Shown piece by piece: positions 13,761 through 39,880 of a stretch of 64,000 nt of DNA; position 1 is the stretch's first letter, and every line of letters begins with the position of its first letter. The stretch comes from Acidobacteriaceae bacterium (lineage in GTDB: Bacteria; Acidobacteriota; Terriglobia; Terriglobales; Acidobacteriaceae), in contig JANXZS010000217.1 in assembly GCA_025355385.1 (NCBI GenBank), positions 1 through 64,000 on the forward strand. The letters are read 5' to 3'. The translations under genes and the position numbers were made by a program. The notes beneath the pieces are model-generated. The model was not told the DNA's origin. It was given only the letters and a program-made list of their open reading frames with translations, and did not search any database.

Positions 13761-14172
13761 CGCGGCGCCTCACTGCAAATTTGCGCCCCGACCGAGCCAA
13801 TGAGGGGTGTTCGTCTGCGACGGGCTAACCTCCACAGTGATTCCTTGCGCCTTCCTGCTCTCGCAGGGAGGAGCGAAGGGGTACCACTGCCTGAGAAATC
13901 CACGGCTATTTTCATGCGGCCAACAAAAATTGTATCCGGAATAGTACGCTTTGCCCGTCTATCGGGCGATTGCGGGGTCGCTGAAGGAGGATTCATCGCC
14001 GGGAAATAATTGAGATTGCCAGCTCTTAGTATCCGGGGCTACTATTTGCAACAGTTCGGCGCAGTTCGCACTAGTGGACGTGTCAGGACGCCTGTAATGA
14101 AGTCGTTCCCCTAATTAAGGGCAGTAAAAGCGACCCCGGGCGGAGCTAATCTCCGGGGGTGGAGTGACTCTG
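13761..14172. other. Intergenic stretch, no supported gene
   Basis: About 410 bases between the coiled-coil protein and the GvpF/L gene. Frames across it give low-complexity, unconserved peptides. It probably holds the promoter of the GvpF/L gene, but I could not assign boxes. Confidence 0.5.
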
Positions 14173-14955
14173 ATGGCATGGTACGCCTACTGTATTTGTG
14201 AAAAGCAGTCCTTCCCTGAGTTGGCTCGTCACCGCAAGCCGATACCGTTAGAAGCCGTAACGGGTGTTTCAGGGAATCAAGTTTTTCTTTATCCCGCCAG
14301 CGATTTGGCCCTAATCGTGAGTGAACACAATCCCGAAGAACAATACGATCAAAAGGCGGGAGTCGACCACGCTCGCGTTATCGCCGACTGCTTTAAGTTG
14401 TCGACAGTTCTTCCCTTCCGCTTCGGCACCGTCTTCAATGATGATGAGGCTTTGAGGCGATCGATCCGCTCCAACCAGAGACAATTTTTCGCCAATATGG
14501 AACGCCTTCGCGGTAAGGCGGAGATGCACTTGAAAGTTGTGGTCGACGATTGCTGTCGCGAGGCTACCAGACCAGTGCTGCAGGATTGCGTCGGCAAAGA
14601 ATACCTGAGCAGCCTGCGCGAGAATGCGACCCGGCAGCGCGAACGACAGACCAAGGCGCGCGCAATCTCCGTGCAGTTACATCGCATGTTTGCTCCCCTT
14701 GACGAGGAGATATCCTGCCGACGAACTGAGGCCGGGAAGATGCTGCTCGACATCGCACACCTGATTGATTCGAAATGCGTGGAGCGCTACCAGAACAAGT
14801 ACTCAAGCGCTACGCACATCCTCAAAGACTGTCGTCTGCAGCTGTCCGGCCCTTGGCCGGCCTACCACTTTGTTCATAAATTGATACGGCCCTGCCACCA
14901 GGCTCCCATCGCCACACCCATCGCGGTGAGCCATGAAGTGGTTGGCGCGGTCTAG
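14173..14955 (+). CDS. Orphan gas-vesicle-type GvpF/GvpL family protein
   Basis: A 260-aa protein from ATG 14173, chosen over GTG 14164 because GGTGGAG sits correctly before the ATG. It shows the GvpL/GvpF pattern: N-terminal WYAYCICE, then HARVIADCFKLSTVLPFRFGTVF (helical VLPxRFGT motif), a central Lys/Glu-rich helix with HLKVVVDD, and a C-terminal second ferredoxin-like part. In gas-vesicle producers these proteins join the GvpA-capping complex. No gvpA, gvpN, gvpK or gvpJ is visible in the window, so a gas-vesicle role is doubtful. The stop codon TAG lies at the edge of the 108-bp repeat, which may have supplied it. Confidence 0.85.
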   Translation: MAWYAYCICEKQSFPELARHRKPIPLEAVTGVSGNQVFLYPASDLALIVSEHNPEEQYDQKAGVDHARVIADCFKLSTVLPFRFGTVFNDDEALRRSIRSNQRQFFANMERLRGKAEMHLKVVVDDCCREATRPVLQDCVGKEYLSSLRENATRQRERQTKARAISVQLHRMFAPLDEEISCRRTEAGKMLLDIAHLIDSKCVERYQNKYSSATHILKDCRLQLSGPWPAYHFVHKLIRPCHQAPIATPIAVSHEVVGAV

Positions 14956-14956
14956 C

Positions 14957-15064
14957 GCAGACGCAGGGTTACTGTAAGGAGAGCCACACATCTCTGCAGG
15001 CATTTTCATCAAGAAAATGCCTACAACGCTGACGCTGGATACATCACACTGTCCCTGCTTCCGC
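14957..15064. repeat. 108-bp inverted-repeat element, copy 1
   Basis: Same length as copy 2 at 39544-39651, with 9 mismatches by eye (about 92% identity). Outer ends are GCAGACGCAGGG and CCCTGCTTCCGC, an imperfect terminal inverted repeat here and perfect in copy 2. An inner perfect 10-bp stem, AGGCATTTTC-atcaa-GAAAATGCCT, sits near the middle. A TA dinucleotide lies just outside each end (14953-14954 and 15067-15068). It contains no ORF. It could be a MITE-like non-autonomous element or a dispersed structured RNA/REP-type repeat. Confidence 0.85.
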
Positions 15065-15082
15065 TTTAGTGATTGTGCAGAT

Positions 15083-15109
15083 AAAAGCCCCGGCTAAACC
15101 GGGGCTTTT
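15083..15109. terminator. Bidirectional terminator between GvpF/L and pgsA
   Basis: The perfect stem AAAAGCCCCGG-ctaaa-CCGGGGCTTTT has A/T-rich ends that act as U-tracts in either direction. It separates the convergent GvpF/L (plus) and pgsA (minus) genes. Confidence 0.85.
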
Positions 15110-15151
15110 CTGTGGCCAATCTGCACATTGACAGGGCGGCGTATTTGCCGC

Positions 15152-39517: not shown

Positions 39518-39543
39518 TTATTTAGCTGGTTACGATGGCTAGT

Positions 39544-39651
39544 GCAGAAGCAGGGTTACTGTAAGGTGAACAACTGATCTCTGCAGGCATTTTCATCAAG
39601 AAAATGCCTACATCGCGGACGCTGGATACATCACACTGTCCCTGCTTCTGC
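39544..39651. repeat. 108-bp inverted-repeat element, copy 2
   Basis: Same length as copy 1 (14957-15064) with 9 differences by eye. Here the 12-bp terminal inverted repeats GCAGAAGCAGGG / CCCTGCTTCTGC are perfect. The inner stem AGGCATTTTC-atcaa-GAAAATGCCT is identical to copy 1. TA dinucleotides flank it at 39540-39541 and 39654-39655. It lies between the PQQ dehydrogenase and the convergent ADOP pseudogene. This is the more intact copy. Confidence 0.87.
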
Positions 39652-39880
39652 TTTAAATCGTCTCACACCCAGAGAGTTGTCCTTCTTTACTCTCGGCATG
39701 GACGTACCGCTACTCTGGGCTTATTCGCCATCGGTTGCTATCGGATATTGCGATAGCCGGACTTCGCAGTCGTTTGATGACGTAGCGAGTCGCGTCAAGT
39801 GACAAAGTAAGAAATTCAGCGACACTGGCCGGCTCCAACCCCGGTCTCAAAATCGAAACCGCTGCACGCGGCAACTTGCA

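Follow-up and report, generated by a model that had tools for sequence, protein, structure and literature searches.

The short inverted repeat that occurs twice in the window, a 64,000-nucleotide stretch of Acidobacteriaceae DNA, is very probably a non-autonomous MITE of the IS630/Tc1-mariner type mobilized by IS630, judging from comparison of its sequences across genomes. The original prediction had allowed for either a TA-targeting MITE or a dispersed structured RNA or REP-type family. The first was borne out: its genome has at least 74 copies, TA is duplicated at the insertion site, an empty site can be seen, and relatives carry a transposase-bearing element whose ends are the same. The second was not supported, as resident copies decay regardless of the stems, the pairs are near-strictly Watson-Crick, there is no Rfam match, and a Y1 transposase is not required.

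The two copies in the window are 112-bp units flanked by TA

Copy 1 lies on the forward strand at 14955-15066 (R2 model, constructed from diverse relatives; 84.3 bits, 1.6e-17) and copy 2 on the same strand at 39542-39653 (95.7 bits, 3.6e-20). The repeat had been described as a 108-bp unit with TA outside its ends. The TA flanks are present, at 14953-14954 and 15067-15068 for copy 1 (target CTAG) and at 39540-39541 and 39654-39655 for copy 2 (target CTAA), but the mobile unit is 112 rather than 108 bp, because the conserved sequence runs one step further (GA...TC) at either end before the TA is reached. Alignment of 74 copies from the window's own genome with their flanks gave the full unit as GA-GCAGAAGCAGGG...CCCTGCTTCTGC-TC, 112 bp between the TAs. 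The 108-bp segments themselves (14957-15064 and 39544-39651) align without gaps at 91.7% identity, with nine differences, in agreement with the approximate count first given.

The 12-bp terminal inverted repeats are found at 14957-14968 (GCAGACGCAGGG, forward strand) and 15053-15064 (reverse strand) in copy 1, where they have two mismatches, and at 39544-39555 (GCAGAAGCAGGG, forward strand) and 39640-39651 (reverse strand) in copy 2, where they are perfect as claimed. Between them is an inner hairpin with a 10-bp stem and an ATCAA loop (14998-15022 and 39585-39609, both forward strand), and its sequence, AGGCATTTTC-ATCAA-GAAAATGCCT, is indeed the same in both copies. The element is 112 bp long, has terminal repeats of 12-16 bp, and is gene-free, which are the size, inverted ends, and non-coding character of a MITE. 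Its folding z-scores range from -6.5 to -7.8. The window repeats are far above chance, with E = 1e-42, at least 74 copies, a z-score of -6.5, and model values of 3.6e-20 and 1.6e-17.

The element is abundant in its own genome and targets TA

Further copies had been expected genome-wide, and at least 74 full-length copies were found in the window's genome, a draft of 4.63 Mb in 321 contigs, with matches down to E = 1e-42. A model search added at least one more full copy beyond these (C205:49993). The 74 copies are about 5.6% off the consensus and scatter around it, as they might after an old burst. A half element was also seen (L033:848-955, contig C25), with the right arm intact and the left replaced by coding-looking sequence. 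The only other genome of the genus that was compared (G001) has no copies of the element.

The left flank reads C-TA, with C and T both at 67 of the 74 copies. The right TA precedes G in 51 copies and A in 22, hence a purine in 73 of 74. In copies with the right-hand A, the base after the left TA is still nearly always G, which means that TA is what is duplicated and that the G is the element's own. A 4-bp duplication of CTAG was ruled out because the fourth base at one end varies independently of that at the other. A TA target with a CTAG/YTAR preference, a trait of the IS630 group, was seen both in the window's genome and in another genome of the family, G314. IS630 prefers TA within CTAG (Tenzen and Ohtsubo 1991, as cited in PMC2170065).

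G314 also supplied the empty site that the original prediction had called for. One copy there holds an identical 115-bp copy inserted into it, with TA on both sides, so that the interrupted site, GATGC-TA[CAGCGG...CCGCTC]TA-AGTGG, can be read against its uninterrupted form, GATGCTAAGTGG. This nested product alone fits a TA duplication and equally fits a right-end TA carried by the element, as would be expected if the element were REPIN-like and a Y1 (RAYT/IS200-type) transposase moved it in single-stranded form. A TA duplication is favored because the base next to the right TA on its outer side is limited to purines. A palindromic YTAR target would give this restriction, which an element-borne TA leaves unexplained. 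In at least five G314 copies, the internal CTAA used by this insertion is occupied by a second hairpin element of a different kind. These compounds seem to have travelled as one unit, since their outer flanks differ, and in some of them (L187, L188, and L189) the second hairpin contains a further repeat, CCCGGGTCCCCGGCAAGCGC...GGGGTGGGACC.

IS630 elements with matching ends occur in relatives

A transposase-bearing element sharing the ends of the repeat was found in relatives, in the form of IS630-family insertion sequences of 1012-1029 bp between TAs. Their ends begin GAGC[A/G] and most have a GCTGTA- or GGTGTA-like motif at positions 17-22 (for example GAGCATTTCTCC...GCTGTA), as the short elements do, and their open reading frames match the NCBI IS630 transposase model NF033545 (8.5e-34) and DDE_3 (PF13358). 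In one genome, G389, insertion sequences with GAGCATTTCTCCTATTGCTGTA ends occur alongside short elements with NAGCACTTCTCCTTCTGCTGTA, and among the elements of 31 genomes the best or equal-best match to these insertion sequence ends was to G389's own short elements. The internal hairpin was not seen in the terminal 130 bp of the insertion sequences.

The IS630 transposase (DDE_3) was detected in 158 of 398 genomes of the family. It co-occurs with the element at an odds ratio of 2.35 (p = 6e-5), rising to 4.3 (p = 4e-8) for element-rich genomes, in tests that take no account of phylogeny or of how many mobile elements a genome carries. A DDE_3 match was absent from 24 element-rich genomes, in which the transposase may have been lost, missed, or be of another kind. 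The window's draft genome yielded no cognate insertion sequence with GCAGAAGCAGGG ends, and its IS630 remnant (contig C312) is truncated, contains stops, and has a different end, with 71% identity to a transposase of G437 over 83 residues. The two DDE_3 fragments of this genome were rejected as the partner on the grounds that their ends do not match.

The REPIN-like alternative raised by the nested copy would also account for the hairpin form, the strictly Watson-Crick pairs described below, and the incomplete symmetry of the ends, of which the first base varies and the last is nearly always C. Y1_Tnp, however, is present in 358 of the 398 genomes with or without the element, and it was not found in the element-rich genomes G044, G107, and G150, where dependence on Y1 is thus not seen. 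No GTAG, the REP tetranucleotide, was seen at the stem foot and the ends are those of IS630 elements, and together with the purine after the right TA in 73 of 74 copies this makes movement by a Y1 transposase most improbable.

The fold covaries across genera but is not maintained in resident copies

A covariance model had been suggested as a test for compensatory change, and both stems covary. The fold tested comprised 25 pairs, 15 in the terminal stem and 10 in the internal stem, in an alignment across genera. Of its cells, 94.3% were paired, and 172 were double changes, compared to 49.6 after shuffling and no more than 45 in slid controls, with only about 13 single changes. This signal comes from the cross-genus alignment only; within the window's genome there were almost no double changes. 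G-U pairs made up 17 of about 801 paired cells (2%). Such a proportion is low for RNA, and the scarcity of G-U points to constraint or correction at the DNA level.

The inner stem had been thought invariant, with changes clustering in the flanking arm. Family-wide it is not invariant, its sites varying at 3-4% compared to about 7% in the arms. In the window's genome, variants of all kinds were far fewer in stems (106) than in arms (323; p = 1e-12), while singletons were spread evenly (41 in 42 stem sites, 45 in 60 arm sites; p = 0.23). Shared variants therefore strongly avoid the stems and private mutations do not. Mutations arising after insertion were thus not selected for the fold, and the lineages that spread had kept it. 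The proposed selection on structure is in this way upheld for spreading lineages and contradicted for resident copies. The loop motif NTCAAG and the apical T/A runs are kept as sequence.

This difference between spreading and resident copies is the main argument against a structured RNA of benefit to the host. Under that explanation the repeat would be a dispersed RNA or 3'-end hairpin acting as a regulatory RNA, mRNA stabilizer, or terminator, with its fold selected in place. The strong fold (z = -6.5 to -7.8), the covarying pairs, and the position at 3' ends between convergent genes are all as it predicts. Neither constraint on the fold of residents nor tolerance of G-U was found, however, as private mutations hit stems as often as arms and G-U is limited to the 17 cells. 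A search of Rfam with the window and 20 related loci gave no match, the element is absent from the same-genus genome G001, and the young G314 copies show no excess in convergent gaps (see below). We consider a host function of this kind very unlikely.

If the repeat is an IS630 MITE, its inner hairpin may have been kept only by common descent and by hairpin-templated repair from arm to arm, with no role in mobility. Correction of a quasi-palindrome would yield double changes without singles, as seen (172 compared to about 13). The arms between the stems, however, vary freely in shared variants and both stems do not, and copying between arms does not alone explain the conserved NTCAAG loop and T/A runs. 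We take this to be a serious possibility, although on balance we doubt it. Tentatively, and with rather less than even confidence, we suggest instead that the inner hairpin, which lies outside the transposase-binding ends, could be something that the element itself needs in order to transpose or replicate. The IS630 transposase or a host factor might, for instance, recognize it as an extruded cruciform or as a hairpin in single-stranded form.

Older copies lie between convergent genes and on stop codons

Each window copy had been reported to directly follow a gene, which is true of both; moreover, both sit between two convergent genes. By a simple longest-ORF heuristic for gene calls, the 68 copies with usable flanks in the window's genome comprised 49 in convergent gaps, 15 in tandem gaps, 2 in divergent gaps, and 2 within open reading frames. 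Convergent gaps thus hold 49 of 66 intergenic copies, compared to about 33% expected from the availability of target sites (p = 1e-11). Young copies in G314, where at least 54 exact left ends were counted and the copies are nearly identical, show no such enrichment (13 of 41). The bias in position therefore looks like a gradual loss of harmful copies, and loss of harmful insertions with time is its simplest reading. The same has been argued for pneumococcal repeats (PMC3049150).

In nearly half of the copies in the window's genome a gene's stop codon falls exactly at the target TA. The stop is rebuilt at the left end because the element begins with G, giving TAG from TA plus G. In G314, where the left end starts with C, none of 25 left-hand genes ended at the TA, compared to 5 of 22 right-hand genes, for which the end rebuilds TAG, although these numbers are small and depend on heuristic gene calls. 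In the window, a GvpL/GvpF-like gas vesicle gene (14164-14955; Pfam 8e-53) ends exactly at copy 1, whose left TA and first element base form its TAG stop. The gas vesicle genes of this bacterial group may merit a look of their own. Just past copy 1, at about 15084-15110, is a GC-rich hairpin with a T-run (AAAAGCCCCGGCTAAACCGGGGCTTTT), which is likely a bidirectional terminator independent of the element.

In a sample of the phylum the element is found only in Acidobacteriaceae

A model built from the window-genome copies found relatives in 50 of the 398 genomes of the family, and a covariance model built on 34 sequences, of which other genomes supplied 31, extended this to 153 genomes in 25 of 79 genera. 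In a sample of 287 genomes from the phylum, matches were confined to members of the Acidobacteriaceae. A related locus is on the record of Acidobacteriaceae bacterium isolate bog_96, from which the family name was taken. A full element (L379:1054-1166; 1.3e-16) was also present on a 52-kb viral contig in IMG/VR, and such a virus is a possible vehicle between hosts. Searches of phage and plasmid collections returned no similar DNA, and no account of a family like this in these bacteria came up in the papers searched.

Comparison with known repeats and proposed life cycle

The kind of element, an IS630-mobilized MITE, is known; what is new here is its spread within the family, the insertion sequence partner seen in relatives, and the covarying internal hairpin. 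ERIC and Correia elements also use TA targets. By its described features, the element appears closest in kind to the pneumococcal RUP, which is about 107 bp long with ends like those of IS630-Spn1 (PMC3049150). The likeness extends to size, high copy number (110 RUP in one genome), ends shared with an IS630-family insertion sequence, terminal repeats paired in the fold, enrichment in convergent gaps, and insertion of one element into another (PMC3049150, PMC10969869). The differences are the host phylum, the internal stem covarying across genera, and the direct sight of insertion sequence and MITE together in one genome (G389). ERIC and Correia are likewise MITEs of about 100-160 bp with a strong palindromic fold and mostly intergenic positions, and ERIC is found across many genera within one family (PMC10969869, PMC3049150), but their hosts are others, and here the Rfam, phage, and plasmid searches were empty and the partner insertion sequence was identified. 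REP and REPIN sequences are also short, high-copy hairpins at gene 3' ends (PMC3116915) but differ in unit length, TA duplication, and partner transposase. One copy in the window's genome (L090:930-1037, contig C312) recalls the Rickettsia palindromic elements, as it lies in frame within a tyrosine recombinase reading frame (SKLL...GHTS), adding 38 codons and leaving the frame open; unlike in that system, copies within genes are exceptional here (2 of 68).

IS630 and ISY100 share the TA duplication with the element and move by cut-and-paste through a Tc1/mariner-type transposase (PMC2170065). They are autonomous, whereas the 112-bp unit is gene-free and has only the ends and the internal hairpin. 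In the cycle we propose, an IS630 transposase would bind the element ends (NAGC-R...KNTGTA), excise the element at TA, and paste it into CTAG, CTAA, or TTAG. Inserted copies would then decay neutrally, and the survivors would be mainly harmless ones, lying between convergent genes or on stop codons that the first base of the element restores. Less certainly, the nested hairpin of terminal and internal stems may be needed for spread, because paired changes preserve it only in transposing lineages.

The near-identical recent copies of G314 and the insertion sequence with its MITEs in G389 together provide a natural system for learning what keeps a bacterial MITE mobile, which also bears on whether internal DNA structure matters to a Tc1/mariner-type transposase. 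In these bacteria, old and young copies compared show selection sorting the insertions, with those in convergent gaps and on self-rebuilt stop codons remaining.
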